Source: Nitrospirota bacterium
Lineage (GTDB): Bacteria; Nitrospirota; Nitrospiria; Nitrospirales; Nitrospiraceae
Direction of reading: 5' to 3'
Length of the DNA: 38,270 bases
Assembly: GCA_002737345.1 (NCBI GenBank)
Contig: NSIK01000029.1
Span: 1-38,270, forward strand
The notes beneath the pieces were generated by a model. It was not told where the DNA came from. It did no database searches and saw nothing but the letters and a program-made list of their open reading frames with translations. The first letter of the stretch is position 1. Each line of letters starts with the position of its first letter. Below, one piece after another: positions 3,904 to 34,656 of the stretch. The position numbers were made by a program, and so were the translations under genes.

Positions 3904-4866
3904 CTAGCTCGGTTGTGGCATGGGCCCGATCGCAGGCCTGTATGGCGCAGCGGGCGGCGGAGCCACCCCGCCCCCCGGCCCATGATAATGCTGGAGCGCC
4001 TCAGGAAGCCAGGATTCGATCTGGTTGATACGAGTTAAATCGGACGGATGGGTGGACAAAAATTCCGGGATCGACTGCTGCGACCTGAAGCAGACCTTAC
4101 CGATCATCTGCCTCGGGCAGCCACTCATGCGCTCCCAAAAAGGAACGGCCTCACGCGGGTCGTATCCCGCTTGCGCCATCAAACGGAGCCCGACGTAATC
4201 GGCTTCCGATTCCTGTTTTCGGTTGAAGGGCAAAGACACATTGACTCCGTAAGCGCCCAAGAGCCCCTGCATCGCACCGGGGTTGACACTGCCTGAGACC
4301 GCCCCGGCCAAAGCCCCCAATTGCGCGATTTGATCCAGGATGCTCCGGCTCATCCGCTCCACTCCATGCCGCTGTAACGCATGGGCGACTTCATGCCCCA
4401 CCACCGTCGCCAATCCAACGTCGTCTTTCGTATGTTTGAGAATCCCGGTGAAAATCGCCACCTTTCCACCAGGCAGCGCGAAGGCGTTGACCATCTTGTC
4501 GTCTTGAATGACGGCAAACTCCCACTGATACTCAGGCTTGTTGGCGGCGGCCGCGATTCTCCGTCCGACCCGTTGCACCAGCTCGTTGATTTCCGCATTG
4601 TCGCTGAGGGGCGCTGACCGCAACACCTCGCGGTAGGCGCTCAAGCCAAACTGCATTTCCTTCTCTTCGGAGAAGAAAATCACCTGATCGCGAGCCGTGC
4701 CTGGCGCGCGATAACAGCCAGTCAGGCTGCCGAACAAACTCATGGCGGCCCCGACTCCGAGCGCGGCGCAGAGGCGCATCGCCCCCTGGGCGCCTAGCGC
4801 CAACATCGCCCGCCGCCCGATGGGAGTGGCTAAGGCTCGATCAATGGATTGAGCAGCACGTGCCAT
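3904..4866 (-). CDS. M48 family metalloprotease, lipoprotein
   Basis: This 320-residue zinc peptidase resembles the periplasmic Loi/BepA-like M48 group that acts on envelope proteins. The N-terminus has a hydrophobic stretch ending in a lipobox, SLTGC with Cys51, so it is probably membrane-anchored on the periplasmic side. The zinc motif HEVAH lies at 158-162 and the third ligand region ESEAD at 219-223, followed by GLRLMAQAGYDP, typical of the family. The C-terminus is Pro/Gly rich (GPGGGVAPPPAAP). It starts 6 bases after sppA and ends just before carB, so it is co-transcribed with pyrimidine genes. Substrate cannot be deduced. A second, quality-control link with SppA is plausible but inferred. 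Confidence 0.9.
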   Translation of the reverse strand: MARAAQSIDRALATPIGRRAMLALGAQGAMRLCAALGVGAAMSLFGSLTGCYRAPGTARDQVIFFSEEKEMQFGLSAYREVLRSAPLSDNAEINELVQRVGRRIAAAANKPEYQWEFAVIQDDKMVNAFALPGGKVAIFTGILKHTKDDVGLATVVGHEVAHALQRHGVERMSRSILDQIAQLGALAGAVSGSVNPGAMQGLLGAYGVNVSLPFNRKQESEADYVGLRLMAQAGYDPREAVPFWERMSGCPRQMIGKVCFRSQQSIPEFLSTHPSDLTRINQIESWLPEALQHYHGPGGGVAPPPAAPYRPAIGPMPQPS

Positions 4867-4872
4867 GGCAAC

Positions 4873-5841
4873 CTACGGCATCCAAAGGTACATGAACTGC
4901 GGCGTTCCACCCCGCACCATCGACAGCAAATCTAAATTGGCGAACCCGGCCATGCCGGCACTCGTCCCGAACAAACGCGAATAGATATTATTCTGATACT
5001 CGCCCCTGTGCCCATAGGTCACGACCCGCGCCTCCGTCAGACCGGCTTTTTTTTTGGCCATCTCGATCGCGTCATCCAGATACCCGATCTCGTCGATCAA
5101 GCCCACCGCCTTGGCTTGGTCTCCTGAATAGATCCGCCCGTCGGCCAGTTTCCTGATCTGCGCAGACGACAGTTGCGGTCGCCCCTCCTCCACCACCGAC
5201 AGGAACCGATGATAAAACGAATCGATCACACTTTGGAAAATGGCTCGTTCTTCAACCGTCATCACCCGAAAAGGCGAACCCATATCTTTGCGGGGGCCGG
5301 ACGTAATCGCGTTGGCTTCGAGTCCCACTTTCTCCAGCAGGCCTCGCGCATTGACGGTCAGCATGATCACGCCGATACTCCCCGTCACCGTCGAGGGATG
5401 GACCCAAATACTGTCCGCCGCCATGGCCAGGTAATAGCCCCCAGATGCGGCCACATCCATCATCGAGGCGATCACGGGCACCTTCTTTTTGAGCTTGAAC
5501 TCCCGCAACTCGTGATAAAGGATGTCCGAGGCGGTCACCGTGCCACCGGGACTATTGATGCGAAGCACCAGGGCTTTGATCTGGTCGTCTTTCGCGGCCC
5601 GCGTCAGCTCTTCCTTGAACAGGGCCACCATGTTGGGATGCGGCATGAGGCCGTCTTTATCTTGCGCGCTGATGACCCCAGACAGATCCAGCACCAGCAC
5701 TTTTCCGTCGCCCGTGCCGCTCAGCTGCACTTCCCGGACCGGCCCGGAGGGCTCGATTAGATTGACCGTGATGCAGCCTGACTGCAAACCGATGATGACG
5801 AGGAGACAGAGCCGGCCAACCATGGTGACAATCCTATACAT
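4873..5841 (-). CDS. sppA: signal peptide peptidase SppA (S49 family), lipoprotein
   Basis: This S49 serine protease is expected to degrade cleaved signal peptides or membrane-associated peptides. I chose the ATG at 5841 (322 residues), which overlaps the carA stop by 8 bases and has GGAG upstream. Longer upstream starts would overlap carA by over 100 bases. The N-terminus MYRIVTM leads into a hydrophobic segment and a lipobox LQSGC (Cys23). The catalytic dyad is visible as Ser133 in AASGGYYLA and Lys185 in [18 protein letters not shown] at 94-100 is the family substrate-binding motif. The length fits the short single-domain (B. subtilis-like) SppA. A run of nine A in the coding strand (5047-5055) encodes KKK near residue 264. 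Confidence 0.93.
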
Positions 5842-7009
5842 GCTGTTTCTCCATGAGCTGAGTAAACTCGGCAAATAAGTAACCAGAGTCATGGGGGCCA
5901 GGAGAGGCTTCCGGGTGATACTGGACCGAAAATACCGGACGATCCACACAGGCCAATCCTTCGATCGAATGGTCGTTCAAACTTACATGGGTCACGGCGA
6001 CTTTCCCGAAGGTTGTCTCAACCACGAGCGGACGATCCGGCACGGATGTGATTGGCTGCGTGACTTGCACCGCAAAATTATGGTTCTGCGAAGTAATCTC
6101 GACCTGTCTCGTGCGCAGGTTCATGACCGGATGGTTCGCCCCATGATGGCCAAACTTCAACTTATAGGTCTTGAGCCCCAACGCGAGGCCGAGGATCTGA
6201 TGACCCAAACAAATACCGAAGAGCGGATATTGGCCGATCAGTTCCCGCACCGATTGAATCGCGTAGGGCACGCCTTCCGGATCGCCCGGGCCGTTTGAAA
6301 GAAAAATCCCGTCCGGTCTGAGGGACGCCACCTGTTTCGCCGTCGTCGAAGCCGGCACGACAGTCACATGGCAGCCGGCATCCACGAGCTGACGAAGGAT
6401 ATTCTGCTTTACGCCGAAATCATAGGCGATAACATGCCACCGCTTGGTCGCAGCGGCGCGGGGCTTCTTGCCGAGCGAAGGAATCCATTCACCCGATCCC
6501 TCTATCCATTGATAGGCTGTCTGACAGGTCACAGTGGTCGCGAGATCCCGACCAATGATGCTGGGGGCCGCCTTGGCCTTGGCTACAGCACGACGGGCGT
6601 CCGTCTCGATATGGGTAATGAGGCCCTGCTGCGAACCATGTTCACGCAGATGACGCGTGAGGGCCCTGGTATCTAGCCCCTCAATGCCGACGATCTTCGC
6701 TTCCTGGAGGTAGGCCTGTAGCTGTTGCTTGCTGCGCCAGTTGCTGGCGAGCGTGCTGGCCTCTTTGACGACAAACCCTTCGGCCCAGATCTTCCGCGAC
6801 TCAATATCCTCCGGCGTCACCCCGTAATTGCCGATGTGAGGACAGGTCATCGTGATGATCTGTCCTTTATAGGAGGGATCGGTCAAGACTTCCTGATAGC
6901 CGGTCATGGCCGTGTTAAACACGACTTCGCCGGCCGTCTCCCCTTCGTATCCCAACGCGCGCCCCTCGAAGAGGGTGCCATCTGCCAATGCCAACAATGC
7001 TTGTTTCAC
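5834..7009 (-). CDS. carA: carbamoyl-phosphate synthase small subunit CarA
   Basis: This glutamine amidotransferase subunit supplies ammonia to CarB. At 391 residues it is full length. The N-terminal CarA-specific domain ([29 protein letters not shown]) is followed by a class I glutaminase domain with the catalytic triad Cys267 (GICLGHQ), His365 and Glu367 (YHPEASPGP). The start is GTG, in the sequence ACGTGA where it overlaps the stop of the preceding DUF4149-like gene by 4 bases, indicating translational coupling. Downstream it overlaps sppA by 8 bases. The partner carB lies about 2 kb further along the same transcript. Confidence 0.97.
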
Positions 7010-7527
7010 GTCACCACTCTATCCCGCCGCAGCGACCGTTGAGCTTTCATTCCTGTCAGCACAATTCCCAGTACGAGATTGACCATGTAGAGCGACCGGA
7101 CCGGCATATGGATACGGAAGAACGCTTCGAACGCCGCCTTCCGCGCCGCCTCCTCTTTCACCGCAAAAGCCTGCGCCTGGAGCGAAGCCACGAGCGGATG
7201 CAGCCAGAGAATGATGATACCGGCGATCACCGTCATCCCCATCAGCAAACCCATCTCAGCCCGGCTGACCGCCACGTCCTGATTGCCACTCCACCAGCGA
7301 TACCAGGTGCCAGCACACAACACCGTCAGCGCTCCAATCGCGAATCGATTATACCCCTCAAAGGCTCTCGTCAGAAAGAACCCGCCTGAGTCCTGCCCGC
7401 CGAACGTATTGAAAACGGCGGGAATGACCGCCCCGATAAGCACCAGCAGCCCGCCGACCCAGATGCCCAGCGCCAGCCATTCACAGGTCAAACAACCGAT
7501 CAGCCACCAACGGGATGAGCGCAACAC
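7006..7527 (-). CDS. DUF4149-like (TMEM205-type) integral membrane protein
   Basis: I chose the GTG at 7527, which overlaps the pyrC stop as TAGTG and has GGAGGG about six bases upstream; it gives 173 residues. A longer reading would run far into pyrC. The protein has about four hydrophobic segments: [18 protein letters not shown], a second after [12 protein letters not shown], a third at [15 protein letters not shown], and a last at [12 protein letters not shown]. It also has the [13 protein letters not shown] stretch before the last segment, as in DUF4149/TMEM205 membrane proteins. Function is unknown. Position between pyrC and carA, with overlaps on both sides, makes co-expression with pyrimidine synthesis almost certain. 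Confidence 0.8.
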
Positions 7528-8813
7528 TAGCCCTCCGCCCGGCTGGCTTCGAATACCACTCGGCCACTGACGATGGTCGTCCTCACGCGCCCCTTCACCT
7601 TCCAGCCGGCAAAGGGAGTGTTGCGGCTCTTTGAAAAAAACTTGGCCGGATCGACTTCCCACTGTTCATGCTGATCCACAATCGTCACATCGGCATCCGC
7701 CCCGATTGCCAAAGTGCCCTTGGCCAATCCAAACACCTTCGCGGGAGCCGTGCTCAATTTATCGACCGCGGACTCCAAGGACAAGATGCCCTCCTCGACC
7801 AAGGCAAGGGTCAAGGGTAGCGCCGTCTCCAATCCGACGATGCCGAAGGGCGCTTCCGCAAACCCCAGTTGTTTTTCCTGCGTGGCATGAGGCGCATGGT
7901 CTGTGGCAATGGCATCGATCGTGCCGTCGCGCAGACCTTCTTTGATCGCTTGCACATCTTTCTCGGTCCGGAGCGGAGGATTCATTTTGGCATAGGTGTT
8001 ATAGCCCCGAACCGTTTCCTCCGTGATGGTGAAGTGATGGGGGCAGGCCTCGGCAGTGACTCTCAACCCGCGGGACTTGGCCTCCCGCACCATCCTAGCC
8101 GATCCCTCGGTGCTGATATGGGCCAGATGCAGCCTGGCGCCAGTCAGTTCCGCCAGGGCGATATTCCGCGACACCATCACATCTTCCGCCGCAGACGGCA
8201 TACCAGGGAGCCCCAACTCAGTCGAGACAACTCCTTCATTCATGCAGCCCCCCTCGGCGAGATGCAGATCTTCACAATGGTCGACCACCGCCACGTCGAA
8301 GGCCAGGGCATATTCCATTGCGCGCCGCATCACGAGGCTGTTCATCACTGGCTTCCCGTCATCCGAGATGGCCACACACCCAGCGCGCCGCAAGTCGCCA
8401 ATCTCCGCCAACTCCTTGCCTTCCAAGCCTTTCGTGATCGCGCCGATGGGAAACACATTCGCCAGCCCGGCCGCTTTCCCCCGCTCCAGCATGAATTCCG
8501 TAATTGCCTGATTGTCGTTCGCGGGGTTCGTATTGGGCATGCAACAGACCGAGGTGAAGCCGCCTGCCACCGCTGCGGCTGCGCCGCTTTGAATCGATTC
8601 TTTGTATTCAAAGCCTGGCTCCCGGAAATGGACATGGAGATCGACAAACCCGGGAAGGACCAACCGACCCTTGGCATCGATCTTCGTGGCGCCAGCCGGA
8701 ACTTTGAGGTTGGGCCCCACCGCCACGATCCGCCCCTCATTGATCAACACATCGGCCACGCCATTGAACCGTCCCGGATCGATCACGTGCCCGCCTGCAA
8801 TGTGAATAGCCAC
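7527..8813 (-). CDS. pyrC: dihydroorotase PyrC (class I)
   Basis: This enzyme cyclises carbamoyl aspartate to dihydroorotate, the third pyrimidine step. At 428 residues it is the longer class I type seen with Bacillus and Aquifex rather than the E. coli type. Metal and active-site residues are visible: H60 and H62 (DLHVHFREPG), D151 (ISDDGKPV), H179 (VDHCED), H232 (LAHIST) and D305 (ATDHAPH). The N- and C-terminal strands form the amidohydrolase composite domain. The start is GTG at 8813, three bases after the pyrB stop, with AGGAG inside the pyrB end. It is translationally linked to the DUF4149-like gene downstream. Confidence 0.97.
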   Translation of the reverse strand: MAIHIAGGHVIDPGRFNGVADVLINEGRIVAVGPNLKVPAGATKIDAKGRLVLPGFVDLHVHFREPGFEYKESIQSGAAAAVAGGFTSVCCMPNTNPANDNQAITEFMLERGKAAGLANVFPIGAITKGLEGKELAEIGDLRRAGCVAISDDGKPVMNSLVMRRAMEYALAFDVAVVDHCEDLHLAEGGCMNEGVVSTELGLPGMPSAAEDVMVSRNIALAELTGARLHLAHISTEGSARMVREAKSRGLRVTAEACPHHFTITEETVRGYNTYAKMNPPLRTEKDVQAIKEGLRDGTIDAIATDHAPHATQEKQLGFAEAPFGIVGLETALPLTLALVEEGILSLESAVDKLSTAPAKVFGLAKGTLAIGADADVTIVDQHEQWEVDPAKFFSKSRNTPFAGWKVKGRVRTTIVSGRVVFEASRAEG

Positions 8814-8816
8814 GAT

Positions 8817-9737
8817 TTAGTTCGCTCCTGACATGAGATAAAGAATACCCATGCGAACGGCCACGCCGTTCGCCACCTGGTCCAAGATCACCGACGACAA
8901 ACTATCCGCCACTTCCGGCGCGATCTCGACTCCCCGATTGATCGGCCCAGGATGCATCACGATCACCTTGGGATCGGCCAGCTTAACTCGCTCGGACGTC
9001 AATCCGTAGAGCCGCGCATATTCGCGAATGGTCGGGAACAGGGCCTTCCCTTGCCGCTCCAGCTGCAGACGCAACATCATGATGACCTGCACGTCGCGCA
9101 GAGCCTCATCGAGATGGTAGTAGACGCGCACGCCCAGCTTCTCGACTCCTGCCGGGATCATCGTCGGAGGCCCCACTACCCGAACTTCCGCTCCCAACTT
9201 GACCAAAGCATAAATGTTCGAACGGGCCACCCGGCTATGGGCTACGTCACCGACGATCGCCACCTTGAGCCCCTCGAACGACAGGCCCCGCTCGCGAATC
9301 GTGTAGAGATCCAAGAGCCCTTGCGTCGGATGCTCATGCCATCCGTCTCCGGCATTGATCACGGCGGACTTCACCCCGCGGGCCAGGGCCTCGGCTGCGC
9401 CGGCCGAAGGATGACGCAGGACGATAATATCCGCCTGCATCGCTTCGATATTGCGCGCGGTATCGAGCAACGTTTCCCCTTTGACGACACTGCTCGACGA
9501 AGGCGAAAAGTTGATCACGTCGGCGCTCAGCCGTTTCGCCGCCAGCTCGAACGATGTGCGCGTTCTCGTACTGGGCTCGAAAAAGAGATTGACCACCGTG
9601 CGGCCACGGAGCGCCGGAACTTTCTTGATTTCCCGCCCGGTCACTTCCTTGAACGAATCGGCTGTCTCCAGGATCAGCTTGATCTCGTCCACCGACAAGG
9701 GCGCCAGGCTCAAGAGGTCTTTGCGTTTGAGACTCAT
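8817..9737 (-). CDS. pyrB: aspartate carbamoyltransferase catalytic subunit PyrB
   Basis: This enzyme joins carbamoyl phosphate and aspartate to carbamoyl aspartate. I chose the ATG at 9737 (306 residues), with GGAGGG six bases upstream; a GTG 4 codons earlier is less likely because it contains the Shine-Dalgarno. The carbamoyl phosphate-binding STRTRTS motif is at 56-62, followed by [14 protein letters not shown], then [12 protein letters not shown], the aspartate-domain MMLRLQLER and [11 protein letters not shown]. No regulatory pyrI subunit gene is seen, so it is probably the unregulated or PyrC-associated type. It lies directly after pyrR. Confidence 0.97.
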
Positions 9738-9750
9738 CGTTCCCTCCACC

Positions 9751-10311
<561 letters not shown>

Positions 10312-10404
10312 TCATTCAACTTTCTGGCATAAAAAAACCCCCTCATCGACATTCGATGAGAAGGTTGAGATGTGTCGGCAGACACAAGCCTGAATAACGA
10401 TCAT
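10312..10404 (-). CDS. possible pyr leader peptide ORF
   Basis: A 30-codon ORF starts at the ATG at 10404 with AAGGAG exactly five T residues upstream, the best Shine-Dalgarno in the leader. It reads M-I-V-I-Q-A-C-V-C and ends with TGA at 10312-10314, one codon before the pyrR ATG and in the same frame. It spans the whole terminator hairpin and T-run. Its Shine-Dalgarno forms part of the antiterminator arm. Whether it is translated is unknown; it could be a leader peptide coupling ribosome movement to attenuation, or a chance ORF. The peptide itself has no recognisable domain. Confidence 0.4.
   Translation of the reverse strand: MIVIQACVCRHISTFSSNVDEGVFLCQKVE
10331..10366 (-). terminator. 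pyr attenuator terminator
   Basis: On the minus strand, AACC-TT-CTCATCG pairs with CGATGAG-GG-GGTT across a 5-nt loop AATGT: 13 pairs including two G-U. It is followed directly by a run of seven T. This is a classic intrinsic terminator, but it sits in the leader, upstream of pyrR and after the promoter, so it must be conditional. Its 5' arm CCTTCTC can alternatively pair with GAG(T)AAGG just upstream, which would form the antiterminator. Confidence 0.9.
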
Positions 10405-10415
10405 AAAAACTCCTT

Positions 10416-10435
10416 ACTCACCTCGCAGGATGAGT
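10416..10435 (-). promoter_or_regulatory. PyrR-binding anti-antiterminator hairpin
   Basis: The minus strand reads ACTCA-TCCTGCGAGG-TGAGT. The 5-bp stem ACTCA/TGAGT encloses UCC-U-G-C-GAGG, an exact match to the conserved UCCNGNGAGG core of PyrR-binding loops known from Bacillus. It is in the right order, anti-antiterminator first, then antiterminator arm, then terminator, and it precedes a pyrR gene. When PyrR-UMP stabilises this hairpin, the antiterminator (GUGAG(U)AAGG with CCUUCUCAU) is blocked and the terminator forms. The sequence match is direct; the mechanism follows the known PyrR family. Confidence 0.88.
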
Positions 10436-10450
10436 ATTAAAGGTTGCTGC

Positions 10451-10479
10451 ATCATACTGAGGCCCAGGAACCCTGTCAA
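10451..10479 (-). promoter_or_regulatory. sigma-70 promoter of the pyr operon
   Basis: The minus strand has TTGACA (10474-10479), a 17-bp spacer, and TATGAT (10451-10456), a near-perfect housekeeping promoter. The expected start is around 10444, which gives a leader of about 135 nt before pyrR holding all attenuator elements. The stretch from 10480 to 10642, up to the unrelated gene ending there, shows no convincing feature. Confidence 0.88.
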
Positions 10480-32655: not shown

Positions 32656-34656
32656 ATGAGTAATCCCAACAGTCTCTACATCACGACGCCGATCTATTAC
32701 GTGAACGACGTGCCCCATATCGGGCATGCCTATACCACCGTAGCGGCCGACGTCCTGGCCCGCTACTGGCGCCTGCGTGGGCGCGACGTATTCTTCCTCA
32801 CAGGGCTCGATGAACATGGGCAAAAGGTTCAGCAGGCCGCCGTCAAAGCTGGCATCGATGCGCAGGCCCATTGCGACAGGCTCGCGCCCCAGTTTCAGGA
32901 ACTCTGGAAGAGGCTGAACATCTCGCACGACGCCTTCATCAGGACGACCGATGCCCCGCACAAATCAGCCGTCCAGCGATATCTTCAAGAGCTCTTCAAT
33001 GCAGGCCTGATTTACAAAGCCGATTACACTGGCTGGTACTGCACCTTCGACGAACGGTTCTGGACGGAGAAGGATGTCACAGCCGGCCTCTGCCCTGACT
33101 GCAAACGCCCGGTAGAGCAACTCAGCGAGCATAACTACTTTTTCAAGATGGGACAGTATCAGGAACGCCTGCTCGACCACATCAAACAACATCCTGACTT
33201 CATCCGCCCCGAATCGCGGCGCAACGAAGTCCTGGGATTTCTGACGACACAAACCCTCGGCGACCTCTCGATCTCCCGGCCCAAATCGCGCCTCTCCTGG
33301 GGCATCGAGCTCCCCTTCGACAAGGACTGCGTGACCTACGTCTGGTTCGACGCGCTGGTGAACTATGTCTCCGCCTTGGAATATCTCTCGAAGAAGCCCG
33401 CCTTCGATGAGTTCTGGCCTGCCTCGGTTCATTTAGTGGGGAAAGATATTCTGACCACCCACGCAGTCTACTGGTCCACGATGCTCATGGCGCTGAACCT
33501 GCCGCTACCGAAAATGATCTTCGCCCATGGCTGGTGGACCGTCAATGGCGAAAAGATGTCGAAGAGCCGCGGCAATGTTGTGGACCCGCACAAGATAATC
33601 GAAACCATCGGCACCGATGCATTCCGGCATTTCCTGTTTCGGGAAGTGCCCTTCGGACAGGACGGAGACTTTTCACAAACCACCATGGTCACCATCCTCA
33701 ACAGCGACTTGGCCAACGGGATCGGCAATCTCCTGAGCCGCACCTTGACGATGATCGAGCGGTTCGCCAATAGCACGATTCCCGCTGCCGGCCCTCCGGC
33801 CCTACCGGAATTGGAAGCGAAGATTGCCGCTGCCGCGACCAGCCTCCCGGGAAAAATCGAGCATGGATTCCGTTCCCTCGCCTTTCGGGAAAACCTCCAG
33901 GCCATCTGGGAACTCATCGGTCTCTGCGACGAATACATCGACAAGGCTGCGCCCTGGAAACTGGCCAAGAGTCCCGACAACCTCCCACAGCTCAACACCG
34001 TCCTGCATACCGCTTCGAGAGCGCTGCGCTTAATCTCTGTTCTGCTCTATCCCTACATGCCGCACACGGCCGGGCAACTGGCCCAACAACTCGGCCTTTC
34101 GTGGGACTTTTCAAAACCGCTACCACAAACAGCCTACGAATGGGGCGCGCCGTTTCCTCAAGCCAAAATTTGCAAAGGCCCTGGCCTCTTCCCTCGCATC
34201 GAAACACAACCACAAGGAGCGAAGACCGTGAGCGACGCAACCATTCCCCCGCAATCGACCGCAGCAATCCCAACGCCGGCCATTCCCGCGCCACCGCCAA
34301 CAACTGCTGCTGCGCCAGCCGCGCCGGCGCAGATCACCATCGACGACTTCATGAAGATTCAGCTCAAGACCGCGAAGGTCATCAGCGCGGAGCGAGTGCC
34401 AAAATCGGAAAAACTTCTCAAGCTGCAAGTCAGCCTTGGCGAGGGAGGGGAGCAACGACAAATCGTTGCAGGGATCGGCAAGAAATACGAGCCGGAGGCC
34501 CTGATCGGCAAAATGATCATCATTGTCGCGAACCTCAAGCCGGCGAAGCTCATGGGCATCGAATCCCAAGGCATGGTCCTGGCCGCAGGAGACAGCGAAG
34601 TGCGCGGCCTTGCCACCATCCTCGAAGACGTGGATCCTGGGACCAAGGTGAAGTAA
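32656..34656 (+). CDS. metG: methionyl-tRNA synthetase with C-terminal tRNA-binding domain
   Basis: MetG charges tRNA(Met). The 666-residue protein has HIGH at 21-24, a connective peptide with one CPDC knuckle, ENYFF-like HNYFFKMGQYQE, and KMSKS at 300-304. The anticodon-binding helical domain follows to about 510. A Pro/Ala-rich linker (about 525-555, PTPAIPAPPPTTAAAPAAPA) leads to an EMAPII/Arc1p-like tRNA-binding domain (DFMKIQLKTAKVISAERVPKSEKLLKL to the end), which promotes dimerisation and tRNA binding. Ribosome site is weak. It is 39 bases after holB. Confidence 0.97.
   Translation: MSNPNSLYITTPIYYVNDVPHIGHAYTTVAADVLARYWRLRGRDVFFLTGLDEHGQKVQQAAVKAGIDAQAHCDRLAPQFQELWKRLNISHDAFIRTTDAPHKSAVQRYLQELFNAGLIYKADYTGWYCTFDERFWTEKDVTAGLCPDCKRPVEQLSEHNYFFKMGQYQERLLDHIKQHPDFIRPESRRNEVLGFLTTQTLGDLSISRPKSRLSWGIELPFDKDCVTYVWFDALVNYVSALEYLSKKPAFDEFWPASVHLVGKDILTTHAVYWSTMLMALNLPLPKMIFAHGWWTVNGEKMSKSRGNVVDPHKIIETIGTDAFRHFLFREVPFGQDGDFSQTTMVTILNSDLANGIGNLLSRTLTMIERFANSTIPAAGPPALPELEAKIAAAATSLPGKIEHGFRSLAFRENLQAIWELIGLCDEYIDKAAPWKLAKSPDNLPQLNTVLHTASRALRLISVLLYPYMPHTAGQLAQQLGLSWDFSKPLPQTAYEWGAPFPQAKICKGPGLFPRIETQPQGAKTVSDATIPPQSTAAIPTPAIPAPPPTTAAAPAAPAQITIDDFMKIQLKTAKVISAERVPKSEKLLKLQVSLGEGGEQRQIVAGIGKKYEPEALIGKMIIIVANLKPAKLMGIESQGMVLAAGDSEVRGLATILEDVDPGTKVK

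Follow-up and report, generated by a model that had tools for sequence, protein, structure and literature searches.

PyrR attenuation is the textbook case of transcription termination controlled by an RNA-binding protein without participation of the ribosome. In the enteric pyrBI operon, which has no PyrR, the decision depends on UTP-sensitive pausing of RNA polymerase in a U-rich leader, while PyrR of Mycobacterium smegmatis acts as a translational repressor and hides the ribosome site of pyrR itself. For the pyr leader of Thermus strain ZO5, Van de Casteele reportedly proposed in 1997 a combination of PyrR and a translating ribosome without an antiterminator, and the Thermus-type attenuator is defined by a leader ORF that reaches the terminator, a Shine-Dalgarno (SD) sequence overlapping the PyrR loop, and the lack of an antiterminator. 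Bacillus-type PyrR attenuation, which employs an RNA antiterminator, is an established mechanism, as described in two reports (PMC4347634, PMC10986495). Among the matches listed from the open-licence literature, no leader ORF in a PyrR attenuator was seen, which is a weak indication of absence, and the combination of a PyrR loop, an antiterminator and a leader ORF with stop/start junctions was likewise not seen among those matches.

The leader described here lies on the minus strand of a 38,270-nt stretch of Nitrospirota DNA (the window), in which a promoter, a PyrR-type loop, an antiterminator and a terminator are followed by pyrR, pyrB and pyrC, with carA and carB further downstream (Table 1). 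An initial annotation had described a leader with all PyrR elements and a 30-codon ORF running through the terminator; all of these were present in the sequence and their coordinates were confirmed. This anatomy is probably that of a PyrR attenuator with a ribosome built into it, in which PyrR and translation of the leader would exert dual control. The RNA is expected to start near the PyrR loop, at about 10445. The gap between the -10 box and the loop is 7 nt in the window, and the promoter layout is shared by the related leaders described below: the best promoter-like site 5' of the loop scored 9-11 of 12 in 129 of 129 leaders, compared with 4-9 in shuffled upstream DNA, and the -10 box ended 7 nt ahead of CCTTTAA in 124 of them. 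The pyrC product scored below the cut-offs of several narrower dihydroorotase models. Between carA and carB, the region 3904-5949 (-), on the operon strand, encodes a signal peptide peptidase with an SppA domain above cut-off, as well as an M48-protease-like protein that scored below the cut-off of its best model.

Table 1. Features of the pyr leader and the first genes of the operon in the window
Feature	Position	Strand	Basis or remark
Sigma-70-type promoter, TTGACA-N17-TATGAT	10451..10479	-	Promoter score 11/12
PyrR-binding loop (anti-antiterminator), CCUU...AAGG closing stem and UCAUCC/GGUGA stem	10412..10443	-	RF00515, pair conservation
Antiterminator 5' strand, GGUGAG-U-AAGG	10412..10422	-	Pairs with 10364-10355
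AAGGAG, Shine-Dalgarno of the leader ORF	10410..10415	-	AAGG also closes the PyrR loop and joins the antiterminator
Leader ORF, 30 codons, MIVIQACVCRHISTFSSNVDEGVFLCQKVE	10312..10404	-	Through the terminator, TGA 10314-10312
Antiterminator 3' strand = terminator 5' arm, CCUUCUCAUC	10355..10364	-	Pair counts, U opposite G
Intrinsic terminator hairpin, T-run 10337-10331 (seven T)	10331..10366	-	Fold
pyrR	9751..10308	-	NCBIfam PyrR NF003549, 238.6 bits (cut-off 138)
pyrB, aspartate carbamoyltransferase	8817..9749	-	NF002032, 414.1 bits (cut-off 263)
pyrC, dihydroorotase	7527..8813	-	TIGR00857, 445.2 bits (cut-off 279.05)

With the pyrR of the window as query, matches at E of at most 0.001 were obtained in 29 of the 32 genomes of the genus, one of which (G006, E 2.6e-4) is another phosphoribosyltransferase. 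The family search yielded matches in 136 of 147 genomes and in 22 of 22 genera at E of at most 1e-20, and a leader was present at 134 loci. Five of these leaders did not differ from another one between the loop and 60 nt past AAGG and were merged, leaving 129 distinct leaders from 22 genera; as the leaders are related, they do not amount to 129 independent trials. Two loci without a leader were left out, namely L029, which is another phosphoribosyltransferase, and L028, where pyrR is in two pieces on the contig with no leader within 420 nt. The family matches in G111 and G105 (partial match) and a divergent second match in G018 are likewise not part of the set. Loci L137-L156 are repeats of earlier places and were not used, and the start of L008 was taken as GTG. 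Outside the family, 60 stretches were drawn from at least 140 genomes with a match (families f10 and f18 are not in the sample); one of these, L171, had no pyrR anchor, and the remaining loci comprised 9 from f2, a family of the same order, and 50 from other members of the phylum. Under a stricter rule, which demanded both loop and terminator, 9 of 9 f2 loci, 29 of 50 other phylum loci and 26 of 63 Bacillota-type loci were retained, the last group having been sorted by record title and including a few others, e.g. a Synergistaceae MAG. A looser rule accepted start offsets of 4-14 nt and a looser loop motif.

The loop of the window (CCTTTAATACTCATCCTGCGAGGTGAGTAAGG, 10443-10412) is part of a match to the Rfam model RF00515 at 10447-10330 (-), with 46.3 bits and an E of 2.5e-5. 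This score is below the curated cut-off of 54, at which a scan of the window found nothing, so that Rfam's own rule does not admit the leader to RF00515; judged by its anatomy, it works like an RF00515 PyrR attenuator and is probably a diverged relative. One RF00515 match was found in the window's own genome, and a search of 147 genomes with the loop pattern gave a match in 135, at a single site each except for G029 with two. The latter genome carries pyrR twice, and a separate leader loop accompanies each copy (L002 and L030); the L002 leader is identical to that of the window over the compared stretch, and the ORF of L030 has 33 codons. On contig G005:C23, pyrR matches at 33167-33607 and 43018-43131 are about 10 kb apart, with a loop at 42891-42923 beside the N-terminal piece, and this split could stem from either an insertion or an assembly error.

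Pairs of the PyrR loop are kept in 126-129 of the 129 leaders and those of the terminator in 109-129, while the ten antiterminator pairs are complete in 102 leaders, reach nine in 23 more and 4-6 in the other four. According to these pair counts the three structures are mutually exclusive, and this, together with the position of pyrR as first gene of the operon, is shared with the Bacillus-type leaders (RF00515). At two positions of the terminator, U in the 5' arm faces G on the other side of the hairpin in 42 and 48 of 129 leaders, respectively, as is expected if the 5' arm must also pair with AAGG. The terminator of the window folded with -19.6 kcal/mol (z -5.48). Its loop and antiterminator duplex were equally strong at -10.5 kcal/mol each, and RNA ending with the antiterminator 3' strand folded best with the PyrR loop and without the antiterminator (-19.1 kcal/mol, z -0.81). 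The antiterminator energies are less telling, as 21% of shuffled arms match the median real arm; the whole-leader fold was only moderately better than shuffles (z -1.97), and the complementary strand of the leader folded as well or better (z -2.85). A small hairpin, UGUGUC-UGCC-GACACA, is located at 10371-10386 (-) within the leader ORF of the window, and similar sequence occurs in some members of the genus.

What distinguishes the family from the Bacillus type is a conserved SD and start codon in and behind the closing arm of the loop, followed by an ORF that extends into or through the terminator. In the window, ATG 10404 sits 5 nt after AAGGAG, and a start codon 5-13 nt after AAGG was found in 129 of 129 distinct leaders from the 22 genera (ATG in 119, GTG in 10), or in 22 of 22 genus representatives (21 ATG, 1 GTG). 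The background level of ATG was 2 to 9 of 129 per 10-nt window at offsets of 14-58 downstream; the final two windows, extending to the end of the terminator, had more (23 and 35 of 129). The spacer between AAGG and the start varies in both length and sequence and the codons drift as well, no base in the six positions before the start or in codons 2-11 being common to more than 16 of the 22 genus representatives. The two bases 3' of AAGG, in contrast, are kept (A in all 129 leaders, G in 126), with no conservation beyond them. This AG lies outside the PyrR stem, the antiterminator and every RNA pairing modelled, and its retention although unpaired is the mark of an SD site and not of RNA pairing. 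The initial annotation had assigned the entire AAGGAG to the antiterminator arm, which holds for AAGG but not for the final AG. A duplex of this site with a generic anti-SD had -5.4 to -8.9 kcal/mol in all 129 leaders. As in M. smegmatis, binding of PyrR would hide a ribosome site, but the site belongs here to a leader ORF ahead of a terminator and not to pyrR.

The ORF might be a mere by-product, AAGG being forced by the PyrR stem and the nearby start having arisen by chance. Pairing does force AAGG itself, and among the Bacillota-type leaders 6 of 26 have a start at such a distance and 20 of 26 have none; under the looser rule 11 of 27 have one and 6 of the 27 are open past the T-run. Single cases outside the family can therefore be chance. 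We regard this explanation as very improbable for the family in view of 129 of 129 against 6 of 26 leaders with a start, the retained unpaired AG, the depletion of stop codons and the stop/start junctions, and a chance ORF was ruled out by the start-codon, frame and junction counts. The alignment of related leaders, which had been proposed as a check on dual control, gave the supporting outcome, with ATG, AAGGAG and open frame kept beyond the RNA pairing.

The leader frame was open past the T-run in 115 of the 129 leaders, compared with 32 and 72 for the other two frames, and between start and T-run it contained 15 stops in 2657 codons, against 61 in 2639 and 78 in 2544. The 14 leaders that stop before the end of the T-run (12 of 48 in genus g6, 1 of 27 in g1 and 1 of 2 in g15) do so inside the terminator hairpin in 12 cases and one base ahead of it in two. 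If a ribosome at the leader stop is taken to shield a further 12 nt downstream, it would fully cover the terminator 5' arm in every one of the 129 leaders (46 and 101 in the control frames), in agreement with the earlier suggestion that a ribosome on the ORF would unfold the terminator. The encoded peptide appears to matter little: substitutions were distributed evenly over codon positions 1, 2 and 3 (39, 44 and 36 in 34 disjoint leader pairs), so that no selection on the peptide is seen, and the peptides differ, which rules out a conserved regulatory peptide. A conserved run of regulatory codons, the hallmark of amino-acid leader-peptide attenuators, was not found either, with no codon-position bias in the 34 pairs. 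It thus seems to be the passage of the ribosome, and not the peptide, that is kept. Relative to the start, the T-run has one phase in 95 of 129 leaders and in 15 of 22 genus representatives; this may be due to shared ancestry and was not used as evidence.

A leader ORF through a terminator is also found in enteric pyrBI, where it is translated, and the initial annotation had drawn this parallel. The present leaders, however, belong to a PyrR system and have no U-rich tract: in 128 of 129 leaders no T-run longer than 4 lies between AAGG and the terminator, and the TTTTT of the window is the sole exception. This rules out a U-tract of the pyrBI kind. The parallel is therefore not supported, and the Thermus pyr leader, from what is reported of it, is the nearer precedent.

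At the downstream end of the ORF, the leaders differ in how they meet pyrR. The pyrR ATG of the window (10308) is in the frame of the leader ORF, whose stop lies 3 nt (one codon) before it, and the earlier description of the two as being in frame is correct for this locus; as a family feature it failed, since only 22 of 129 leaders share the pyrR frame, and the stop-one-codon-start layout was found in L001, L003, L004 and L005 only. The commonest junction, present in 62 of the 129 leaders and in 15 genera, is a 4-nt overlap of the leader stop with a start in the frame of pyrR, the leader itself being in another frame (ATGA in 57 and GTGA in 5; 2 and 6 in control frames). One of these (L107) is doubtful, as the overlap is within the terminator and the ORF has 19 codons, but the other 61, still from 15 genera, have ORFs of 30 to 94 codons, and hence ORFs of different lengths end at one kind of junction. 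Such junctions would also suit an ORF that serves as a loading ramp for pyrR, with termination left to RNA pairing and PyrR alone as in Bacillus, and the conservation of the canonical switch helices is in keeping with this. We nevertheless consider the ramp unlikely to be the whole explanation. In 25 of 129 leaders, the stop lies more than 20 nt ahead of any in-frame pyrR start, yet SD, start and reach into the terminator are kept, which argues that the ORF contributes to attenuation besides loading pyrR. Moreover, the f2 ORFs pass the T-run in 2 of 9 leaders and stop before it in 7 of 9, and any ribosome on the leader would have to occupy the 5' arm of the terminator.

Only 9 of the 62 overlapping pyrR starts have an SD of their own. 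As proof of translational coupling, the missing SD was weakened by a control in which all in-frame starts were allowed to compete: in 41 of the 62 leaders another in-frame start is found right after the T-run, with the best SD there in 37 of the 41, and pyrR may therefore have two starts in these leaders. Across the family, an ATG (103) or GTG (12) directly follows the T-run in 115 of 129 leaders (10330-10328 (-) in the window) and stands behind the SD-like 3' arm of the terminator. The frame of the 103 ATG codons is open into pyrR in 41 cases, in frame but stopped in 17 and out of frame in 45. None of the 9 f2 leaders has this arrangement, which was found in 11 of 26 leaders of the Bacillota type and in 16 of 29 from other phylum members; it may be a second start that antitermination of the RNA sets free, or it may reflect a preference of the terminator.

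Beyond the family, a start codon 5-13 nt after AAGG was found in 9 of 9 f2 leaders, in 27 of 29 leaders from other phylum members, and in all 7 Deinococcota leaders (Thermus, Meiothermus, Truepera and a Thermaceae MAG). Under the looser rule, other phylum members had a start in 33 of 34 leaders and a frame open past the T-run in 19 of 34. By script, the Deinococcota frame was open past the T-run in 6 of 7, and in the seventh (L220) it is open from a GTG 2 nt after the ATG. Three Bacillus-like leaders (L268, L271 and L278) also have an ATG after AAGG and a frame open past the T-run, the ATG being only 4 nt from AAGG in L268 and L278, a poor SD spacing. CCTT ahead of the terminator loop was distributed differently: it occurred in all 22 genus representatives and all 9 f2 leaders, in 23 of 29 other phylum members, in 13 of 26 Bacillota-type leaders, and in 1 of 7 Deinococcota leaders, where this lone CCTT (L229) is early in the ORF and, as judged by eye, outside the hairpin. 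Taken together, these counts indicate that the family has both devices, while the sampled Deinococcota have mainly the ribosome device and the Bacillota-type leaders mainly the RNA one. As a test for the antiterminator across phyla, z-scores of the duplex between loop arm and leader did not separate the groups, and the comparison therefore uses the occurrence of CCTT together with the pair counts.

The likeness to the Thermus pyr leader is considerable, as in both the SD adjoins the AAGG of the PyrR loop and the leader ORF runs through the terminator; an SD overlapping the loop combined with an ORF reaching the terminator was found in 129 of 129 family leaders. The leader could thus be a Thermus-type attenuator, in which termination is averted by the ribosome alone, the antiterminator helix playing no part. 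This would be consistent with the layout of PyrR loop, SD, start and ORF shared with the Deinococcota, and with the best fold of the window RNA, which is formed without the antiterminator. It is, however, improbable, because all ten antiterminator pairs are present in 102 of 129 leaders and U is placed against G, neither of which is needed for a terminator alone. As the antiterminator is conserved in the family, whereas 6 of 7 Deinococcota leaders are without CCTT before the terminator loop, the leader works like the Thermus type but is not filed there.

Dual control by PyrR and translation, as proposed in the initial annotation, thus remains the best reading of the sequences, in which start codon, SD, ribosome reach and stop/start junctions are kept alongside three RNA helices. 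A possible sequence of events is as follows. RNA polymerase would start just 5' of the PyrR loop, whose closing AAGG would then have three possible partners: the CCUU at the 5' end of the loop, stabilised by PyrR-UMP (off); the CCUU in the 5' arm of the terminator, giving the antiterminator (on); and the ribosome, for which AAGGAG is the SD of the leader ORF. At high UMP, PyrR, which we infer binds the loop as in Bacillus and lowers read-through, would clamp the loop, so that the ribosome site is hidden and the terminator is free to form. At low UMP, a ribosome would load and translate into the 5' arm of the terminator, and no hairpin would form, the ribosome either replacing or reinforcing the RNA antiterminator. 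The leader ORF would thus be translated, with its ribosome deciding on read-through, and translation of pyrR would be coupled to it: in most leaders the ribosome would end at or near the pyrR start, where re-initiation is possible. What counts against this scheme is that the antiterminator helix also covers AAGG and, if formed first, would exclude the ribosome, that the window RNA folds best with the loop and not the antiterminator, and that the T-run is passed by only 2 of 9 ORFs in f2 and, under the looser rule, by 19 of 34 in other phylum members. In its most specific form, PyrR-UMP, the RNA antiterminator and the ribosome would compete for a single AAGG in a three-way switch, and reading of the operon would require both low UMP and translation that keeps pace with transcription; this we put forward tentatively, as a proposal with somewhat less than an even chance of being right.

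If the three-way switch is true, the clamp that ends transcription also blocks the delivery of ribosomes to pyrR, and the leader combines the switch of Bacillota, which works by RNA only, with that of Deinococcota, which works by the ribosome only, in a hybrid that the whole family, and in outline the phylum, has retained. A change of the start codon alone could ask whether the ribosome stands in for the antiterminator. Leader ORFs of the same kind are also present in Thermus and its kin, which makes the 1997 proposal testable by sequence in many genomes. The comparison suggests that pyrimidine supply and translation probably act on the same switch, and that the ribosome is probably a fixed part of the PyrR switch in at least one family.
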